Assembly (NCBI GenBank): GCA_016210055.1
Contig: JACQUZ010000033.1
Coordinates: 1 to 48,705, forward strand
Reading direction: 5' to 3'
DNA length: 48,705 nucleotides
Origin: Deltaproteobacteria bacterium
Lineage (GTDB): Bacteria > Myxococcota_A > Polyangia > Haliangiales > SHYZ01
A model generated the notes under the pieces. It saw only the letters and a list, made by a program, of their open reading frames with translations. It ran no database searches and was not told where the DNA came from. Within the stretch, counting starts at the first letter, position 1; every line of letters starts with the position of its first letter. The translations under genes and the position numbers were made by a program. Shown here piece by piece: positions 19,335 through 27,851 of this stretch.

Positions 19335-20480
19335 GTGATCGACTTTGACCACAACGCCACGACCCGACTCGACCAACGGGTAAAGGAGGCGATGCTGGCT
19401 TTCTTGTCGTCGCCACGCGGCAACCCTTCGAGCATTCACGCCTTGGGGCGCGCGGCCCGGGACGCCCTCGAGCGCGCGCGCGAAGAGGTGGGCGCCCTTA
19501 TCGGTGCATCCTCGGGAGTCGTGTTCACCTCGGGCGGGACCGAGGCGGACTTCCTCGGGGTGCTCGGCGCGGCCCGCGCGGCGCGTGCGGCCGGTCGCCC
19601 GCCCCGCGTGGTCTCGTCTCCGCTCGAGCACCCAGCCGTGCGCGGAGCCTTGGAGACGCTATCCGACGAGGGATTCGAGGTGATGCTCCTCCCGGTCGAC
19701 GAGAAGGGACGGGTAGAGCAAGGGGATCTCGCGGAGGCCCTGCGCGGCGGGGCGGCACTCGTGACCCTCGCCTTGTCGAATCATGAGCTGGGGAACGTGT
19801 ACGACATCGCGGCGTTGGCAGAGCTCGCCCATGCGCATGGGGCGCTGTTTCACAGCGACGGGGTGCAAGCTGCAGGACGGATGTCCATCGACGTGCACGC
19901 CCTCGGCGTGGACCTTCTCTCCCTATCGGGACACAAGATGCACGGACCCAAGGGGATCGGTGCCTTGTGGGTGAAGCCTGGGGTGGAGATCTTCCCCTTG
20001 TGGAAGGGGGGGCATCAGGAGAAGGGGCTGCGGCCGGGTACCGAGAACGTGGTGGGAATTGTTGGCCTGGGTGAGGCGTGCCGGCTCGCCCGTACGGAGG
20101 GGATCTCTTGCGCAGAGTCGGTGTCGGCCCTCCGAGACCGCCTGGAGCAGGGGCTCCTCGCCATTCCTGGCGCACGGGTGAACGGCGATCGCGAGCGCCG
20201 GGTGCCAGGCACGACGAACATGGCGCTTGCAAGCGCCCCGGGAGAGCTCGTCGTGATTGCCCTGGACCTAGCAGGCGTGGCTGCTTCGACCGGCGCCGCA
20301 TGCGCGTCGGGAAGCATGGAACCGTCCCCGGTGATCCTGGCCTTGGGGCAGCCGCCAGACCGGGCCGCCGAGGCGGTTCGGTTCAGCTTGGGCCGAGACA
20401 ACACCCAGGACGAGGTCGACGAGGTCATCTCGTTGCTTCCCGTGATCGTGGAGCGGATCCGCGCCGCCAGTTTCGGCTAG
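19335..20480 (+). CDS. cysteine desulfurase, NifS/IscS family
   Basis: This encodes 381 residues from a GTG. PLP-dependent class V features are complete: HNATTR near the N-terminus, SGGTEADF (66-73), PLEHPAV with His99, HSDGVQAAG with the Asp that holds the pyridine N, SLSGHKMHGPKG with Schiff-base Lys201, LRPGTEN, and the active-site loop STGAACASGS with Cys323. The enzyme moves sulfur from cysteine to a persulfide for Fe-S clusters or tRNA thiolation. No iscU, iscA or hscAB genes are near, but mnmA lies 1.4 kb downstream, so a role in tRNA 2-thiouridine is plausible. It overlaps the convergent rlmD gene by four bases. Confidence 0.9.
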   Translation: MIDFDHNATTRLDQRVKEAMLAFLSSPRGNPSSIHALGRAARDALERAREEVGALIGASSGVVFTSGGTEADFLGVLGAARAARAAGRPPRVVSSPLEHPAVRGALETLSDEGFEVMLLPVDEKGRVEQGDLAEALRGGAALVTLALSNHELGNVYDIAALAELAHAHGALFHSDGVQAAGRMSIDVHALGVDLLSLSGHKMHGPKGIGALWVKPGVEIFPLWKGGHQEKGLRPGTENVVGIVGLGEACRLARTEGISCAESVSALRDRLEQGLLAIPGARVNGDRERRVPGTTNMALASAPGELVVIALDLAGVAASTGAACASGSMEPSPVILALGQPPDRAAEAVRFSLGRDNTQDEVDEVISLLPVIVERIRAASFG

Positions 20481-21847
20481 CCGCGGCTGAGGCTCACCAC
20501 GGTCTCGACATGCGGCGTGCCGGGCATGAGATCGATGGGTTGCACGGACTCTACCCGATACCCAGCCCGCACGAGCTCGGCCAGGTCAGCGGCCAACGAT
20601 TCTGGGCCGCAGCTCACGTACACGAGGTGGGGGACGCTTGCCTGGGTGATCGGCACGCGGGCGTCTGAGAGCCCCTTGCGCGGCGGATTGACGACCAAGA
20701 GGTCGATGTTCCCAAGGACGCGCGCGGCGATCTGAAGTCCGCTTGCCGCGTCCGCCGCGACGAAGGTGGCTGTCTCGGCGAGGCCCATCCCCTGCGCCGA
20801 TCTCCGCGCGTCTTCCACCGCGCCGGCGTGGCTTTCGACCCCGACCACCCGTGCTCCGAGACGTGCCAGCGTGAGGGCGATACCTCCCACGCCAGTGTAC
20901 AGGTCGAGCACGCGAAGGCCTTTGGCTTCGCCGACGAGGCGAACCACCTCGGCGTAGAGGCGACCTGCCTGCAGGCGATTGACCTGAAGAAAGGCGCGGG
21001 CAGAGACGACCAGGCTCACGTCGCCGATCCGGTCGCTGAGCATGCCGGTGCCCAGGAGATTGATGTCGACATCTCCGAAGAGCGCTCCCGACGTCTTCGG
21101 GTTGACGTTCAGGACCACGGAAGTGACTTCTGGGTGTTCCCGGCACAGCAGTTGGGCCAATCTTGCGAGCGCGGGACGCGGGGCTTCGCTCGCGCAGGCG
21201 ATGACGACCAGAATGCCCCCTTCGCTGCTGCGGCGAATCACCAGGTACCGGAGCTCGCCGCTTCGCGTGCGCTCGTCATGCGGTGGGATTCGCTCGCTCT
21301 CGAGGAGGTTCATGACGGTTTTCGCCACGGCGTCAATCGGAACTTCGGGAACCTGGCATCCGGCCATGTCCACCACTCGGTGCGAGAGGGGGGCATAGCT
21401 TCCGTAGACCAGGCGCCCATCGTTCCCGCTCGCGAGCACGTACTTGGCCTTGTTGCGGTACTGCACCTCGAGGGGAGACGCGATCGCCTTGTCCACCTGT
21501 GCGGAAGCGAGCTCGGGATGGCGTGAAAATGCCCGCTCGACCCTGCGCCGTTTCCAGGCGAGCTGGTCAGCGTAGCGCACGTGCGAAAGCATGCACCCGC
21601 CGCACTCGCCAAGGGCGGGGCAGCACGAGGGGACACGAGCAGGAGAGGGGGAACCCTCGAGGCGGACGAGCGATGCCCACGCTCTGGGACCATGGGGGCT
21701 GACATGTTCAATGCGAACGCGGACCTGTTCTCCAGGGAGCGCTAGAGGTACATGGATTTCCTTGTTGCCCTGGCTTCCCACCCCACGCCCTTCGTGGTCA
21801 AGGGCGTCGATGGAGATGGTCAAGATGTCCCCCTTCCTCATTTCCAC
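20477..21847 (-). CDS. rlmD: 23S rRNA (uracil-5-)-methyltransferase, RlmD/RumA family
   Basis: This encodes 456 residues, GTG start (an ATG lies two codons in). It has an N-terminal TRAM-like domain (about 1-62), then a [4Fe-4S] site with Cys76-x5-Cys82-x2-Cys85 (CPALGECGGC) and a fourth Cys in DMAGCQVP. The SAM-binding motif is VLDLYTGVGGIALTLA, followed by VVNPPRKGL and the nucleophile Cys in YVSCGPESL. The family makes 5-methyluridine in 23S rRNA using SAM; RlmC or TrmA-like specificity cannot be excluded. No Shine-Dalgarno sequence is seen; TAGGTT (21854-21859) ends six bases before the GTG. Confidence 0.87.
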   Translation of the reverse strand: MEMRKGDILTISIDALDHEGRGVGSQGNKEIHVPLALPGEQVRVRIEHVSPHGPRAWASLVRLEGSPSPARVPSCCPALGECGGCMLSHVRYADQLAWKRRRVERAFSRHPELASAQVDKAIASPLEVQYRNKAKYVLASGNDGRLVYGSYAPLSHRVVDMAGCQVPEVPIDAVAKTVMNLLESERIPPHDERTRSGELRYLVIRRSSEGGILVVIACASEAPRPALARLAQLLCREHPEVTSVVLNVNPKTSGALFGDVDINLLGTGMLSDRIGDVSLVVSARAFLQVNRLQAGRLYAEVVRLVGEAKGLRVLDLYTGVGGIALTLARLGARVVGVESHAGAVEDARRSAQGMGLAETATFVAADAASGLQIAARVLGNIDLLVVNPPRKGLSDARVPITQASVPHLVYVSCGPESLAADLAELVRAGYRVESVQPIDLMPGTPHVETVVSLSRG

Positions 21848-21903
21848 GGTCCAAACCTAGCAGTTGACGCGCCGCCCTCCCCGTGAAATATGAGGGAGCC
21901 CGC

Positions 21904-23010
21904 ATGCAGGATCGAGAGATGATTGTGGTTGCGCTCTCGGGTGGCGTGGACAGCGCCACTGCTGCGGCGATGCTCGTGGAAGCTGGCTTTCGCGTGGTGG
22001 GGATCACCATGCGCCTCTACAACGCAAGGGGGACCGCGTCTGCGAGCGGTGGCCGTTGCTGCGGCCCGCGCGACATGGAGGACGCGCGCAAGGTGTGTTC
22101 CCACTTGGGGATCCCCTTTTACGTGGCCAACTATGAAGACGAGTTCAGGCGAGCGGTCATTGACGACTTCGTCTCGGAGTACGTGGCGGGGCGCACGCCC
22201 AACCCGTGCGTTCGCTGCAACGAGAAGGTCAAGTTCGCGCCCCTTTTGGCCCGCGCGCGGGCCCTAGGCGCCTCCAAGCTCGCAACCGGGCACTACGCTC
22301 GCATCGACCACGATGCGCGAGGGCCGCGTCTCCTGCGCGGGGTCGACGAGAACAAGGATCAGTCGTATTTCCTTTTCCCGCTCCTCGGGAAAACCCTCGA
22401 GAGCCTCATGTTTCCGCTGGGCGGGCTCACCAAGGAGGAGGTCCGGGAAAAGGCGAGGGCCTACGGGATTCCCAACGCCGGGAAGCCCGAGTCCCAGGAG
22501 ATCTGCTTTGTCCCCGACGGTGACCACGTGGGCTTTGTGGAGCGGATCTCTGGGGACGCGGCGCCCAGGGCAGGCGAGGTGGTAGACATCCGCGGTCGCG
22601 TCCTCGGAAGCCACGATGGGGTGCACCGATTCACGGTTGGGCAGCGTCGAGGCCTGGGCGGAGCGCTGGGGGGCGGCCAGCCCATGTACGTGGTCTCCGT
22701 GGATGCGCTGACGCGTCGGGTCACCGTGGGCAGCCGCGAGGAGACCAGGCATGTCGGCATGCGCGTCGCGGACGTGCGCTGGATGGGCGAGTGCCCGAGC
22801 GGACCACTCCGCGCGGAGGTGCAGATCCGCCATCGCCATCGCGCCGTTCCTGGGTCCGTAATTCCCGACAGGGAATGTGGAAGTAGCGCCATGGTGAGCT
22901 TTGACTCGCCCTTGTCCTCGGTAGCGCCTGGACAGGCAGCGGTCTTTTACCAAAATGATGTGGTCATGGGCGGCGGCTGGATAGAGAGCGGACAACGAGC
23001 CGACAACTGA
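21904..23010 (+). CDS. mnmA: tRNA 2-thiouridylase MnmA
   Basis: This encodes 368 residues. The ATG at 21904 is preferred over a GTG at 21883 because GAGGGA lies six bases ahead of it. The PP-loop SGGVDS is at residues 12-17. The catalytic pair is present: Cys105 in PCVRCNEKVKF and Cys201 in SQEICFVPDGD. MnmA adenylates and thiolates U34 of Glu, Gln and Lys tRNAs, taking sulfur from a desulfurase relay. The stop codon (23008-23010) is directly followed by the ribosome binding site of the small UGA-containing gene, so the two are probably one transcript. Confidence 0.93.
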   Translation: MQDREMIVVALSGGVDSATAAAMLVEAGFRVVGITMRLYNARGTASASGGRCCGPRDMEDARKVCSHLGIPFYVANYEDEFRRAVIDDFVSEYVAGRTPNPCVRCNEKVKFAPLLARARALGASKLATGHYARIDHDARGPRLLRGVDENKDQSYFLFPLLGKTLESLMFPLGGLTKEEVREKARAYGIPNAGKPESQEICFVPDGDHVGFVERISGDAAPRAGEVVDIRGRVLGSHDGVHRFTVGQRRGLGGALGGGQPMYVVSVDALTRRVTVGSREETRHVGMRVADVRWMGECPSGPLRAEVQIRHRHRAVPGSVIPDRECGSSAMVSFDSPLSSVAPGQAAVFYQNDVVMGGGWIESGQRADN

Positions 23011-23021
23011 AGGAGGATCAA

Positions 23022-23234
23022 ATGCAGACGGTGACCATCTACGGCAAGGACACGTGACCCTACACCACTCGCGCCCGTGAGGCGCATGCCAAGCGTGGGT
23101 ACCAAGTGGACTACGTGAACGTCCAGAAGGATAGCTCTCGCATCCCCGAGATGCTCGCGCACTCAGGTGGCCGCCGTGCCGTCCCGGTGCTCGTCGAGAA
23201 TGGCCAGGTCACGATCGGATTTGGCGGTACCTGA
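23022..23234 (+). CDS. glutaredoxin-like probable selenoprotein (in-frame UGA read as selenocysteine)
   Basis: This is a 70-residue frame broken only by one TGA at codon 12 (23055-23057). It starts at ATG 23022 behind an AAGGAGG site with a 5-base gap. The product reads MQTVTIYGKDT-U-PYTTRARE and continues through a thioredoxin/glutaredoxin fold with the conserved cis-Pro and glutathione-site region RRAVPVLVEN and the end TIGFGGT. The UGA falls exactly where the first active-site Cys of the CPYC motif belongs, and the second Cys is Thr (UPYT), as in the small bacterial glutaredoxin-like selenoproteins sometimes called UXX-star. A candidate SECIS hairpin follows (23071-23085). The fold is continuous on both sides with no other lesion, which argues against a pseudogene. 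It needs selA, selB, selC and selD elsewhere. Role is probably redox. Confidence 0.82.
23071..23085 (+). promoter_or_regulatory. candidate bacterial SECIS hairpin
   Basis: GCGCC (23071-23075), loop CGTGA, GGCGC (23081-23085): a perfect 5-bp stem with a G at the second loop position, as required in bacterial SECIS elements. The loop begins 18 bases after the UGA, inside the known 16-37 base range. CCAC (23065-23068) and GTGG (23095-23098) could form a lower stem across an asymmetric bulge. It overlaps coding sequence, as bacterial SECIS elements do. Confidence 0.6.
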
Positions 23235-23244
23235 GGCGTATAGC

Positions 23245-23265
23245 TACCGCCGTGTGCGGTATACT
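23245..23265 (+). promoter_or_regulatory. -10 element and dyad upstream of rnc
   Basis: TATACT (23260-23265) ends six bases before the rnc GTG, with no good -35 box. A perfect dyad, TACCGC (23245-23250) and GCGGTA (23256-23261), overlaps its left side and could be an operator or a small RNA hairpin after the UGA-containing gene. Confidence 0.4.
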
Positions 23266-23271
23266 GCGTTC

Positions 23272-24045
23272 GTGACGGGATTGGACTCAGGGCGCTACGA
23301 TCGCCTGGAAAGAAAACTCGGATTCAGCTTTCGCGAACCGTCGCTCCTGGAAGTCGCGCTCACCCACAAGTCGTTCCTCAACGAGACCCCAGGGCTCAAG
23401 CGTGGTGACAACGAGCGCCTGGAATTCCTTGGCGACGCCGTCCTTGGCCTAGTCATCGGGCATCTCCTCATGGAGCGCTTTCCCACGCTTCGCGAAGGGG
23501 AGTTGTCCGTGATGCGAGCGCGCATCGTCAACGAGCAGGGGCTCGCCGAGGTTGCGCTCGACCTCGACTTGGGCGCTTGGCTGTTCCTCGGCAAGGGCGA
23601 AGATCAGACCGGGGGCAGGAAAAAACCGTCGCTCCTGGCGGACGCGACCGAGGCGGTCGTCGGCGCAGTCTACCTGGACGGAGGCTTCTCTGCGGTCTTT
23701 GACGTGCTCCGTCACCTCTTTGCGTCACGTCTTGGTGCCGTGGAGGCGTCGGGATTCACGGATTTCAAGACCAGGCTCCAGGAGCGTGCTCAGGGGCTTC
23801 TTCGTGAAACGCCACGCTATGCCCTCGTCGGGCAGAAAGGCCCCGACCACGACAAGACGTTCGAGGTGGCGGTCCTCTTGGGTGGAAAGGAACTGGCGCG
23901 CGGCGACGGGCGATCAAAGAAAGAGGCCGAGCAGCGCGCGGCCGAGAAGGCGCTCGGCGTGCTCCCCGGAGATCCTACATCCCCATCGCAGGATGCGGGT
24001 CCTCGTGGCTTGAAGCCGACTTCTTCAGATCCGTCGACGCCTTGA
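23272..24045 (+). CDS. rnc: ribonuclease III
   Basis: This encodes 257 residues from a GTG at 23272, the usual length of bacterial RNase III. The nuclease domain has the signature NERLEFLGDAVLGL (about 47-60) and the second acidic site DATEAVVGAVYLDGG (about 124-138). A double-stranded RNA-binding domain follows (about 165-235; DFKTRLQERAQ ... GGKELARGDGRSKKEAEQRAA), then a disordered tail. It cleaves double-stranded RNA in rRNA processing and mRNA decay. No Shine-Dalgarno sequence is present, and a -10-like hexamer ends six bases upstream, suggesting a leaderless transcript. The last 71 bases overlap the convergent DUF4340 gene. Confidence 0.93.
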   Translation: MTGLDSGRYDRLERKLGFSFREPSLLEVALTHKSFLNETPGLKRGDNERLEFLGDAVLGLVIGHLLMERFPTLREGELSVMRARIVNEQGLAEVALDLDLGAWLFLGKGEDQTGGRKKPSLLADATEAVVGAVYLDGGFSAVFDVLRHLFASRLGAVEASGFTDFKTRLQERAQGLLRETPRYALVGQKGPDHDKTFEVAVLLGGKELARGDGRSKKEAEQRAAEKALGVLPGDPTSPSQDAGPRGLKPTSSDPSTP

Positions 24046-25417
24046 GAAAACGGTTCACGCTGAACTCGGAGAGCGTGAACACCTCGGGACGGGTGTTGCT
24101 CGTGATAAAGTAGTTCCCGTTTTCGATGGCGCCCACCGTGACGGTCACGGAAGCTCCGTCTTTCTTCTTGATCGTGATTTTGCCCGTCGGCTTCTTGAAC
24201 CCTGTCTTGGACGCGTCTGCCCCTTCCACGATCTGGATGGCCTTCAGGTGATTGAAGCTCGCGGCGAGGGACTGGACCTTGAACGTGTCGAGCTCGCCCA
24301 AGTCGGAAGGAACTGCCACTTTCCAGGCCTTATCCCCCGTGCGCTCGAGCTTGACCTTGTCCGTGCCCTTGACGATCTCGATGCTCGCCATGTCCTCTTC
24401 GTCGATCTTCGCAAGGGTCTTGTCCCGCCACTCCATGGGGGATTTGAGCAGTGCGTCGACAGTGGACTTGCGGACCTTCCAGATCCGGGGCGAACCGGGG
24501 CTCGAGATGTGCACTTCGTCCCCCTGCTCGCTGCCTAGCGCCAGCTGCTTCTTGGCGCCATCCTTGGAGAACACTGCGACGGTGATTCGCGGCTTGTCCA
24601 AGCCAACTTGCTCGGGCTTGGCGTCGTCTGCAAAATCGCTGGCGTCCAGGTGACCGAGAACGGAGGCCACCTGACCGGGGAGGCTCTCGTCAATGGGGCC
24701 CCCAATGGCCTCTTTTCCCTGGGCGAGGATCCACCTATCGCCGCTCGGCGGCGTTGGCGGCACCGGTTGGGGGCTCGCTTTGTTCTCGCCGTCCTTCTTT
24801 TCGTCCACCGGTGGAGGCGGGGACTCGCGCTTGAGTGCCAGCTTTGCACCGCCTTCGTGCGAAAGCTCGATGGAGTCCACTTGGCTGGCCTCAAAGCGAA
24901 GGATCTCCCGGTCGCGCCACATCTTGGGCTCGTGCGAGAAGGCATAGCGGCTAAGATCCGACACGGAGAAGACCTGGGTTCCCCCGAGCCGCACGTTGCC
25001 CGTCGTGCCGATTTGGATGGTGGCGAGCACTTTCCCGCCTTTCTTGGGCAGGATCTTGAGGACCTGATCGTCCTTCACGTTCAACTTCTCGTGCGACGCG
25101 GGCGATTCCGCTATCACGTCCTTGAACTTGGCCTTCTCGAGAGACGAAAGAGCCGATTCCACGCTCTTCTTGTCGGCGCGGTCCACGATTGGCTGAACGA
25201 GCTTCCACTCGTTCCCTTCTTTCTTGAGGGTGATGGTCGGCTTTTCCGGTTCCGTGATCGCGAGCTCGTCGATGTCCTGCGCCTTGAGCTCGGGGATTCC
25301 GGCGAGCTTCTGCTCCCCGGCGCGAACATGGGGATCCGGGCGCGTCCTCGTGTAGATGACAGCGCCTGCGACCACGACCAAGAGTCCAAGAGAAATGAGT
25401 GCGCGCTTCTCGAGCAT
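23975..25417 (-). CDS. DUF4340 protein
   Basis: This encodes 480 residues. An N-terminal signal-anchor helix (about 6-23; ALISLGLLVVVAGAVIY) leads to a repeated beta-rich extracytoplasmic region: IDELAITEPEKPTITLKKEG, VKLERTGDKAWKVAVP and similar DUF4340-type segments occur more than once, with a Pro-rich insert near residue 200-225. DUF4340 proteins are commonly encoded beside GldA/F/G-like ABC systems and probably act with them in the envelope. It is the last gene of that minus-strand operon, 11 bases after the GldG-like gene. Its 3' end overlaps rnc by 71 bases. Confidence 0.85.
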   Translation of the reverse strand: MLEKRALISLGLLVVVAGAVIYTRTRPDPHVRAGEQKLAGIPELKAQDIDELAITEPEKPTITLKKEGNEWKLVQPIVDRADKKSVESALSSLEKAKFKDVIAESPASHEKLNVKDDQVLKILPKKGGKVLATIQIGTTGNVRLGGTQVFSVSDLSRYAFSHEPKMWRDREILRFEASQVDSIELSHEGGAKLALKRESPPPPVDEKKDGENKASPQPVPPTPPSGDRWILAQGKEAIGGPIDESLPGQVASVLGHLDASDFADDAKPEQVGLDKPRITVAVFSKDGAKKQLALGSEQGDEVHISSPGSPRIWKVRKSTVDALLKSPMEWRDKTLAKIDEEDMASIEIVKGTDKVKLERTGDKAWKVAVPSDLGELDTFKVQSLAASFNHLKAIQIVEGADASKTGFKKPTGKITIKKKDGASVTVTVGAIENGNYFITSNTRPEVFTLSEFSVNRFLKASTDLKKSASSHEDPHPAMGM

Positions 25418-25428
25418 GGCAAGAGCTC

Positions 25429-27129
25429 CTAGAGCTGGATGTTTCGGCGCCTGGCCTCGCGCAGGCGCCAGTAGATCATGCCGAACGTGAACAGGGCGAG
25501 TGGGATGCCGCCGATGTTGGCAAGCTTGATGAGACGCTTCTCGGCTTTTTCCACCGGCTGGATCGGCCGCGCCACTTGCTTCGCGCGCGCGCCGACGAGA
25601 TCCATGTCTTGGGCCAGCCAGTCCACCATGGTGTGGACGGCTTGGAAGCCACCCAGGAAGACGTTCGCGAGCGGCATTGCTTGCATGACCTGGAACATCT
25701 TGTCTTCGGCGAACTCCGAGCCACCGATGACGACGAGGCGCGTCCCCACCGGGCTCTCCTTGATGGTCTCACCGGGCGGAGTATTGCTCATGTTCTCTGC
25801 CTTTTGCCCCTCGGGTTTCGGAGGCTCGGGGGCAGCCGCCACTCCTTCGGGCTTGGGCTTGTCGGCAAAGAACGACTTGAACTTGCCCAGCGCGTAGTAA
25901 CCCACCACTTTCGGAGCTTGGGCCCCGGTTGGGGCATCGAGCCTGAACTCCCTGGTGATGGCCATGACGTCGTCCTTGACAAAGGACGACGGGAGACTGC
26001 GGAGAAGTGGCTTGACCTCAACACCGTCCGCCTTCCCTTCGGCCAACGCGCCGACGAGCTTGACTGTGGAGGTGAATGGGAGGGCTAGTGCTTTTAGCCC
26101 CTCGAGGGGCTGGTACCTGTCACCTGCGAGGACTTCGGTGAGTGGGAAGAAGGCCCGAGCCATGAGGACCTCTTGCCCGATCACCAACACGCCAGGCGCT
26201 CCGTTGGGGTCCAGGACCGTGTTCTTCTCGATCTCGAACCCGTAGTGCGCGAGAAGCTCGGAAAGCCCGTGGTCGGCCGGGGTACCCAAGAGCGGCTGCG
26301 CGGCCTGCATGAACTGCGGCACCTGAGGATTCTGGGACCCTTGCCAGCTCATTCCGCGTACGAGGAAGAGGACTGGCTTGCCATTCATGAGGTGCTGATC
26401 GAGGTAGTACTTGGCCGCATCGGAGACCTTCTGGACGGGACCGTTCACGATGAGCGTGTCGACGTTTTCGATTTCCTTGGGGTTGGACTGCCAGTTGACC
26501 ATGGTCACGTCATGCAGGTCTCCAAGTCCGACCCTTGGCGACATGAGCGCCTGCGCTTGCGGTGGCTCCCCAAAGCCGGTGGTCACGCCCACCTTTTTCT
26601 TGCCAAAGGCGAGGCGCTTGATGCGGGTCGAGAACTCGAACTCGAGCCCCTCGACCTGAAATCCGTGGCGAGGATCCGGCTGCCACACTTCTTTCTTGTC
26701 GAGGTACTGGAACACGACCGCGAAGTACGCGGGGACCTGTTCCTGCTTGTCGTCGTTCAAGGTGAGGAGAAGGAGCTTCTGGATGCCTTCCTTGCGCACT
26801 TCCTCCTCGAGCTCCGGCTTGTTCCACGGGTCGACCTTCTCCCACGAGAGCTTGCCTCCCGAGGACTCGGCATACTCGGTGAGCAGGTTCTCGAGGTACT
26901 GCTGCTTGTCGGCCTGGTTGGGCGGGATGTTGCCGATATACGCCTTGACGATCACCTTCTCGGGAAGGCCCTTCACCATTTTTTTCGAGGCGTCGGTGAG
27001 CGAGTAGATCTTGTACTCGGTGAGGTCCACCTTCTGCGGCGCCTGGCAGCTAAAGACGTTCAAGAGGACCAGGATCAGCGCGGCGCTCAGCGAAACGACG
27101 AGTGAGTTGGCGGCAGTCTTGACTTTCAT
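25429..27129 (-). CDS. GldG-like ABC-transporter-associated protein
   Basis: This encodes 566 residues. The ATG at 27129 is chosen because GGAGGGA lies just upstream; an earlier in-frame start would add seven residues. There is an N-terminal anchor helix (about 9-27) and a C-terminal helix (about 535-555; IGGIPLALFTFGMIYW). The region between is extracytoplasmic, with the GldG-type pattern: YKIYSLTDASKKMVKGLPEKVIVKAY near the start, DTLIVNGPVQKVSDAAKYYLDQ in the middle, and RLVVIGGSEFAEDKM near 465. In Bacteroidetes GldG partners GldA and GldF in gliding and surface transport. The operon context here is the same, but the cargo is unknown. Confidence 0.84.
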   Translation of the reverse strand: MKVKTAANSLVVSLSAALILVLLNVFSCQAPQKVDLTEYKIYSLTDASKKMVKGLPEKVIVKAYIGNIPPNQADKQQYLENLLTEYAESSGGKLSWEKVDPWNKPELEEEVRKEGIQKLLLLTLNDDKQEQVPAYFAVVFQYLDKKEVWQPDPRHGFQVEGLEFEFSTRIKRLAFGKKKVGVTTGFGEPPQAQALMSPRVGLGDLHDVTMVNWQSNPKEIENVDTLIVNGPVQKVSDAAKYYLDQHLMNGKPVLFLVRGMSWQGSQNPQVPQFMQAAQPLLGTPADHGLSELLAHYGFEIEKNTVLDPNGAPGVLVIGQEVLMARAFFPLTEVLAGDRYQPLEGLKALALPFTSTVKLVGALAEGKADGVEVKPLLRSLPSSFVKDDVMAITREFRLDAPTGAQAPKVVGYYALGKFKSFFADKPKPEGVAAAPEPPKPEGQKAENMSNTPPGETIKESPVGTRLVVIGGSEFAEDKMFQVMQAMPLANVFLGGFQAVHTMVDWLAQDMDLVGARAKQVARPIQPVEKAEKRLIKLANIGGIPLALFTFGMIYWRLREARRRNIQL

Positions 27130-27140
27130 GGCTCCCTCCG

Positions 27141-27851
27141 CTATCGCCACTTGCGCGCTGCGAGGACCTGCACCGACAGGAGCAGGAGCACGGCAATGGT
27201 GGTCGTGTAGTAGATGACATTGCGCAGCTCGATGACGCCGCGGGCGATCTTTTCAAAGTGGTACTGGGGCGATGCGTATTCGATGATCGGGCCGATGGTG
27301 CTCCCGGCGACGCTCACGAAATTGCCGAGGAGGAACGCGGCGAGGCACGTGACCGCACCGATGATCAAAGCCACGAGCTGGTTCTTGGTAAACGCGGAGG
27401 CAAGAAGGCCAATGGCCAGGTACGTTCCGCCGAGGAGGATCGATCCCGCGTAGCCCCCAATGACCGGGCCCCAATCCAGGGGGCCAAGCTTGGCGACCGT
27501 CAAGGCAAAGGGCAACGTCAAGACGATCCCAATCGTCAAGAGCCCAAGGGCCGCAAGGTACTTGCCGACGACCACCTCCCAGTCACGAACGGGCATGGTG
27601 AGCAGCATCTCGATGGTCCCTGTGCCCCGCTCCTCGGCGAGGAGCCGCATGGCGATACCAGGCCCGAAGAACAGGAAGAGGACGGGCATCCAGCCAAAAA
27701 AAGCATCCATGGTGGCCTGGCCCCGCAGGAAGAACCCGTCGAAGAACAGGAACCCCGCGAAGACCAGAAACAAGCCCACGACGATGTACGCGATGGGCGA
27801 CTTGAAGTAGGCGCTAAACTCGCGCTTTGCGATCACCAAGGCCTGGCGCAT
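27141..27851 (-). CDS. ABC-2 type permease, GldF-like
   Basis: This encodes 236 residues with about six hydrophobic helices, as expected for ABC-2 permeases. The segment GPGIAMRLLAEERGTGTIEMLLTMPVRDWEVVVGK carries the conserved ABC-2 motif (RLLAEERxxGTxExLLT). It forms the membrane channel for the adjacent ATPase. The gene sits 11 bases before the GldG-like start and 18 bases after the ATPase stop. It has no fused ATPase or periplasmic domain. Confidence 0.86.
   Translation of the reverse strand: MRQALVIAKREFSAYFKSPIAYIVVGLFLVFAGFLFFDGFFLRGQATMDAFFGWMPVLFLFFGPGIAMRLLAEERGTGTIEMLLTMPVRDWEVVVGKYLAALGLLTIGIVLTLPFALTVAKLGPLDWGPVIGGYAGSILLGGTYLAIGLLASAFTKNQLVALIIGAVTCLAAFLLGNFVSVAGSTIGPIIEYASPQYHFEKIARGVIELRNVIYYTTTIAVLLLLSVQVLAARKWR

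Follow-up and report, generated by a model that had tools for sequence, protein, structure and literature searches.

A predicted double selenoprotein of UXX-star family 1 in a deltaproteobacterial genome, with candidate SECIS hairpins inside the gene and past its stop codon

Several glutaredoxin-like selenoprotein families close to the gene reported here have been described. In the available text of a 2026 review (PMC13188914), model NF041114 is listed as Distant Grx-like protein 1 / UXX-star family 1, with the motif UxxT and a number of selenocysteines (Sec) of two. The same text lists an experimentally verified Sec-containing glutaredoxin, which is similar to the present protein in having Sec at the first active-site position and differs from it in having one Sec, a UxxC instead of a UxxT motif, placement under PF00462 and, as listed there, no UXX tail. 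Its Table 1 gives the HUGP/GUXX-star fusion as NF041212, while in NCBIfam the fusion is NF045501 and NF041212 is the model of the whole Uxx_star subfamily. Since a double-Sec family already stands in the text of this review that was available, the gene described below is a new member of a known family, presented with a corrected gene model. Bacterial SECIS elements are placed within coding regions in the review literature as far as available ("typically", in one passage), and among the matches listed no description of a SECIS past the stop codon was found in the literature for the UXX-star family. The name UXX-star, in our own interpretation, appears to stand for U-X-X-stop. Haft and Tolstoy 2025 and Haft and Gwadz 2023 are the likely sources for UXX-star; what is added here, namely the corrected gene, the co-occurrence of hairpins with UGA codons, the repeated gain or loss of the active-site Sec and a structural lead, may already stand in those works.

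The gene lies between mnmA and rnc in the window, that is, the whole stretch of 48,705 nucleotides that was analysed (Table 1). The original prediction had described it as a probable selenoprotein with a ribosome binding site, an ATG and a single TGA at the first active-site position. The AAGGAGG at 23010-23016, which overlaps the mnmA stop codon by its first base, and the ATG at 23022 are both present, and the TGA at 23055-23057 is in frame and falls on the first active-site position (TUPYT, with UPYT as residues 12-15). The interpretation as a selenoprotein is supported, but it was incomplete, for the TGA is not single: a second in-frame TGA at 23232-23234, 59 codons from the first, is followed by GGC GTA TAG and gives the U-x-x-stop tail also seen in relatives, and the gene end formerly set at 23234 is nine bases too early. 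With UGA-71 read as Sec the frame goes on through Gly and Val to the TAG at 23241-23243, which yields 73 codons before the stop and a protein with two predicted selenocysteines, U12 in the UPYT motif and U71 (MQTVTIYGKDTUPYTTRAREAHAKRGYQVDYVNVQKDSSRIPEMLAHSGGRRAVPVLVENGQVTIGFGGTUGV). UGA is still in use as a stop nearby, as mnmA, 11 bases upstream, and rnc both end in TGA.

Table 1. Features of the double-UGA gene and its immediate surroundings, in coordinates of the window.
Feature	Position	Strand	Evidence
UXX-star family 1 glutaredoxin-like gene, predicted double selenoprotein	23022..23243	+	NF041114, Pfam PF00462
Shine-Dalgarno-like AAGGAGG, 5 nt 5' of ATG	23010..23016	+	sequence
TGA codon 12, predicted Sec, UPYT motif	23055..23057	+	TGA in 5/22, Cys in 17/22 distinct family genes including the window
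TGA codon 71, predicted Sec, UGV-stop tail	23232..23234	+	TGA in 20/22, Cys in 1, Ser in 1 of the distinct family genes
TAG, predicted real stop	23241..23243	+	sequence
Predicted SECIS hairpin 1, GCGCC-CGUGA-GGCGC, within coding region	23071..23085	+	own filter, published criteria
Predicted SECIS hairpin 2, UACCGC-CGUGU-GCGGUA, wholly past stop codon	23245..23261	+	own filter, covariation, RNAalifold
mnmA, tRNA 2-thiouridine(34) synthase, ends in TGA, 11 bases 5' of the selenoprotein ATG	21883..23010	+	NF001138, 402.4 bits (cut-off 284)
rnc, ribonuclease III, ends in TGA	23272..24045	+	TIGR02191, 241.6 bits (cut-off 166.25), match from ORF residue 47

Membership in UXX-star family 1 is clear from the NCBIfam model NF041114, to which the protein scores 118.3 bits (cut-off 72) with its tail, covering all of the profile (positions 1-70 of 70), and 109.3 bits without it; Pfam Glutaredoxin PF00462 gives 42.2 bits, and NF041114 also matches each of the 39 sequences of alignment A2, with E-values of at most 1e-8. 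The C/U-x-x-T site of the family is found as UPYT within a glutaredoxin-like fold, as indicated by the Pfam match and by the structural matches of the model to glutaredoxins, and the C-terminal Sec followed by two residues and a stop is found as TGA GGC GTA TAG at 23232-23243; U71 and the two residues after it seem to be the feature from which the family takes its name. There is no essential difference from other members of family 1, with which the C/U-x-x-T site and the GFGGT-U-G-V tail are held in common; the window has the double-Sec form, whereas 17 of the 22 family genes have Cys-12, although the main scan demanded Cys. Three further models match nearly the whole or the whole protein and remain far below their cut-offs, with 49.9 of 100 bits for UXX-star family 2 (NF041211), 62.8 of 97 bits for family 3 (NF047338) and 50.4 of 325 bits for the HUGP/GUXX-star fusion (NF045501). 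The fold is shared with glutaredoxin 3, the E. coli Grx3 being the top sequence match among solved structures, and with NrdH-redoxin, but the scores fall short of the cut-offs in both cases (TIGR02181, 41.6 of 90 bits; TIGR02194, 21.5 of 85.75 bits), and in contrast to these two the UXX-star protein is shorter, ends soon past the last strand and has a predicted C-terminal Sec.

A protein search gave 361 relatives at E up to 0.001, of which the best 120 of 361 are listed. In the class search, the only scan unbiased on position 12, the family was above the cut-off in 7 of 317 genomes; UGA stands at both positions 12 and 71 in five of the seven, which belong to four families (G000, the genome of the window, with G400, G472, G475 and G476), and Cys12 is combined with UGA-71 in G001 and G471, the G471 protein being the same as that of locus L051. 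Sixteen loci, from Myxococcota, Acidobacteriota and further deltaproteobacterial bins, came from a collection scan, which is blind to double-Sec relatives since its search pattern required Cys-12. At position 71 these loci have TGA in 14 cases, TGC in L056 and TCA in L059, and in all 16 two codons and then a stop follow. The broader model NF041212 was over its cut-off in 2 of 377 genomes of a phylum-wide sample, G000 and G089, the match in the latter (L022) having Cys and, in the portion read, no UXX tail. The Cys-12/U71 form is also present in the cultivable Anaeromyxobacter oryzae (L057). The one match among plasmid records is a Pseudomonas glutaredoxin 3 with 43% identity. From 23 genes one duplicate protein was dropped (L067, identical to L051), and the 22 that are left, including the window, are the distinct family genes to which the counts refer. 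None of the three findings named beforehand as speaking against a selenoprotein applies: the Sec machinery genes are present (see below), a sequencing error is very unlikely, since TGA-12 recurs in four other genomes of the class, and the 17 of the 22 genes without Sec-12 all have Cys there, which for 16 of the 17 holds partly by construction because the scan that found them demanded Cys.

An AlphaFold model of the 73-residue protein, with Cys in place of Sec, has a mean pLDDT of 96.6, and DSSP assigns to it strands at 3-8, 28-33, 56-59 and 62-65 as well as two-residue bridges at 53-54 and 71-72, for which the output gives no partner. The bridge at 53-54 is missing from the 70-residue model, which lacks the UGV tail, and residues 61-70 have a pLDDT of 84 there instead of 96; the two Cys-for-Sec models used different alignments, A2 with 39 rows and A1 with 21 rows, which is a confounder of this comparison. 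As the bridge at 53-54 is gone without the tail, the tail probably pairs in the model with residues 53-54, just before Pro55, which is invariant in alignment A2. The position just before the Pro normally holds glutathione or the substrate backbone in glutaredoxins, which also have a final helix after the last strand. Most of the structural matches listed are glutaredoxins, NrdH-redoxins or glutathione transferases, and by VIA-align the matches, among those listed, end at model residue 69 or earlier. Pairing of the tail at 53-54 would bring U71 close to U12, so that, judging from the secondary structure of the models, U71 may serve as a built-in partner of U12.

It is proposed, with fair confidence, that this UXX-star member has two selenocysteines, predicted at 12 and 71, and that the two would probably act together within the protein as a selenium redox pair. 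SelB with Sec-tRNA is predicted to read UGA-12 through the hairpin inside the gene and UGA-71 through the hairpin located past the TAG stop, and the product is predicted to adopt a short glutaredoxin fold that ends soon past the last strand, without the final helix. The tail would run along residues 53-54, just before Pro55, at the place of glutathione or substrate; we infer from this arrangement that U12 and U71 pair and have a redox role, in which U71 could resolve the bond between U12 and an oxidised substrate. A more specific version is offered tentatively, at rather less than even confidence: a glutaredoxin whose own tail replaces glutathione, the fold being cut after the last strand, U-G-V lying in the groove beside Pro55 and U71 forming a diselenide with residue 12 (a selenenyl sulfide in the Cys-12 relatives), with UGA-71 recoded by a SECIS wholly past the stop, the active-site Sec being both gained and lost and the tail Sec mostly kept. 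If the tail does take the place of glutathione within the protein, this would suggest what the family does, a point left open in the available text of the review (PMC13188914). An argument from missing glutathione was dropped, as a GCS2-family ligase is present in the genome and the glutathione-synthetase result is ambiguous (200.3 of 299.05 bits, below the cut-off), which leaves room for a mode that uses glutathione.

Chelation would be served by the inferred closeness of residues 12 and 71 as well, and it has been suggested, in the available text of the review, that Sec in UXX-star may serve as metal ligands or meet unknown substrates (PMC13188914). A clamp in which U12 (or C12) and U71 bind a soft metal or metalloid (Hg, As, Cu), making the protein a metallochaperone and not a redox enzyme, is nevertheless considered unlikely, although it is the most serious of the alternatives: the variants with Cys or Ser might bind less well, and in the part of the ORFs scanned no metal-resistance gene is among the neighbours identified in the class (desulfurase, rlmD, mnmA and rnc) or in the other group (homologues of HhH-GPD, NDK, protoglobin, RlmN, phosphorylase and chaperonin).

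The gene neighbourhood bears in addition on whether the product, instead of being the selenium redox pair favoured here, is a selenium partner of tRNA 2-thiolation that reduces MnmA or passes sulfur to it. In the class mnmA adjoins the gene in 6 of 7 carrier genomes, 11 bp away in the window, and rnc is downstream in 5 of 7; a cysteine desulfurase homologue is near (19335-20480). The start of rnc in the window, GTG 23272, is an estimate, and the program-made ORF begins at 23167. Against such a role, which we regard as improbable, the gene lies away from mnmA in G400, mnmA is near the gene in 0 of 15 regions read from other groups, and the mnmA-rnc order is found also without the selenoprotein. 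Thirty mnmA loci were read, of 57 genomes with a match, and the gene is adjacent in 3; among the 27 loci with no selenoprotein next door rnc stands beside mnmA in 6, one of them (L097) from the genus of the carrier G476. As this order exists without the gene it may be ancestral, predating or surviving the gene, and the adjacency of mnmA was dropped as a clue to function on account of this control. A second group of 8 loci has other neighbours in common, including homologues of HhH-GPD (6 of 8), NDK, protoglobin, RlmN and phosphorylase, as named from one representative locus. Neither type of neighbourhood points to one pathway, and function is not settled by context. The desulfurase is NifS/IscS-like, scores below family cut-offs and is a possible sulfur donor for MnmA. 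On the minus strand, the ORFs at 25429-27150 and 27141-27851 resemble the gliding-motility ABC transporter proteins GldG and GldF, below curated cut-offs.

Both UGA codons are followed by a hairpin. The 5-bp stem reported 18 bases downstream of UGA-12 was confirmed as GCGCC/GGCGC with a loop CGUGA, the loop starting 18 nt past the UGA; the stem of hairpin 2 begins past the TAG, so that this hairpin lies entirely downstream of the coding region. A filter of our own (stem of at least 5 bp and a loop of 4-6 nt that begins 17-24 nt from the U of UGA), which was fixed after a first look at the data and applied to 22 genes that are kin, finds a hairpin after 25 of 25 UGA sites (5 at position 12 and 20 at 71) and at 0 of 19 non-UGA sites (17 with Cys-12, one Cys and one Ser at 71); at the position of hairpin 1 this amounts to 5 of 5 UGA-12 genes and 0 of 17 Cys-12 genes. 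Of the 22 C-terminal tails, 20 have a hairpin; 2000 mononucleotide shuffles give 5.0 on average and 13 at most. By the published bSECIS criteria (loop 3-9 nt, stem 4-16 bp, G in the first two loop bases, spacing 16-37 nt, energy of -7.5 or lower), with the energy taken for the hairpin only, 21 of 25 UGA sites qualify, made up of 19 of 20 at position 71 and 2 of 5 at position 12. Two of the 19 non-UGA sites qualify too, those of L051 and L057, both at position 12 (2 of 17 Cys-12), so the separation is not perfect. Hairpin 1 of the window is within these limits (loop 5, stem 5, CG.., 18 nt, -7.8 kcal/mol). Hairpin 2 is the sole UGA-71 site that fails them: its loop of 5, stem of 6, CG.. and spacing of 16 nt fit, its energy alone, -7.2 kcal/mol, is just short of -7.5, and its 40-nt fold has -12.7 kcal/mol.

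A hairpin alone is not rare, given that 117 of 1128 TGAs of the window, both strands counted, pass our filter when a G is also required among the first two loop bases, and 96 of 1125 pass the published criteria. A hairpin with a CGUG loop follows 2 of 1128 window TGAs, U12 and U71 of this gene, the loop motif having been picked after both had been seen. Covariation at hairpin 2 was assessed in six of the seven class members; G400 was left out because the loop of its C-terminal hairpin (locus L072) differs, being CGGUCG/GGUC and not of the CGUG type. In the alignment of the six, 97.2% of cells are paired and 4 of 6 pairs are changed on both sides, which 12 of 500 shuffles match; the covariation score was reached by 0 of 500 shuffles and by no slid control, and RNAalifold on the same alignment returns the same hairpin. 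Folding energy was no better than in dinucleotide shuffles for the two window hairpins (z -0.63 and -0.53) and was rejected as a proof of SECIS with z-scores so near zero, and Rfam over 21800-24100 gave two matches, both far below the gathering score. With one hairpin in the gene and one past the stop, and with relatives that lack a UGA lacking the hairpin too, the family forms a natural test of the rules for bacterial SECIS elements.

The 25 of 25 homologues fetched from the databases (from P0002-P0119) are annotated as ending at GGT (24) or GGH (1), the point where the UGA-71 tail starts, and this could be taken to mean that only U12 is a selenocysteine and that TGA codon 71 is the real stop. 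That reading is very improbable. Two sense codons and then a stop, which is of varying kind, follow position 71 in 22 of 22 distinct family genes; L056, with Cys at position 71, has kept the tail; every one of the 20 UGA-71 sites is followed by a hairpin, and within the class this hairpin carries compensatory changes; and the NCBIfam model NF041114 takes in the tail. As judged from the protein records alone, the database homologues are likely to be systematically truncated at UGA-71. Gene callers seem to end such genes at one or both UGAs, and the proteins then go unseen or lack the tail that names the family.

The presence of the Sec machinery in the genome, proposed earlier as a check, was confirmed. 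Assembly G000 (5.43 Mb, completeness 97.99, contamination 5.85%) has selA (561.7 bits), selB (313.1 bits), selD (395.2 bits, with an in-frame TGA of its own) and tRNA-Sec (76.8 bits; anticodon UCA by ARAGORN), all over their cut-offs, so that SelA, SelB, SelD and tRNA-Sec, which a bacterial selenoprotein requires, are found in one genome. A broken or mis-sequenced ordinary glutaredoxin gene, for which nothing was found except the in-frame stops themselves, can be set aside for practical purposes in view of these machinery genes, the double TGA in five genomes of four families, the otherwise open coding sequence and the hairpins at the UGA sites. The selD gene (L010, contig C68 of G000, minus strand) has its in-frame TGA in HGGGUACK, followed in the fold by a 6-bp stem with a loop CGGGA, and SelD looks like a selenoprotein as well; this hairpin fails the position limits of our filter, which accordingly does not cover every selenoprotein gene of the genome.

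Mapped on a tree of the proteins of all 22 genes, the distribution of U12 takes 3 changes to explain (3-4 in the 5-95% bootstrap range). At least 2 of these are forced by well-supported branches, of which there are only 4 among the 19 inner branches. It thus appears that closely related members have repeatedly acquired or lost U12. Of the distinct family genes, 20 of 22 retain U71; it is replaced by Cys in one relative and by Ser in another, so it is not indispensable. In these two, L056 (2487-2738, Cys) and L059 (5989-6228, Ser), only a weaker 4-bp hairpin is found at the corresponding place, which looks like a loss of selenocysteine at position 71.
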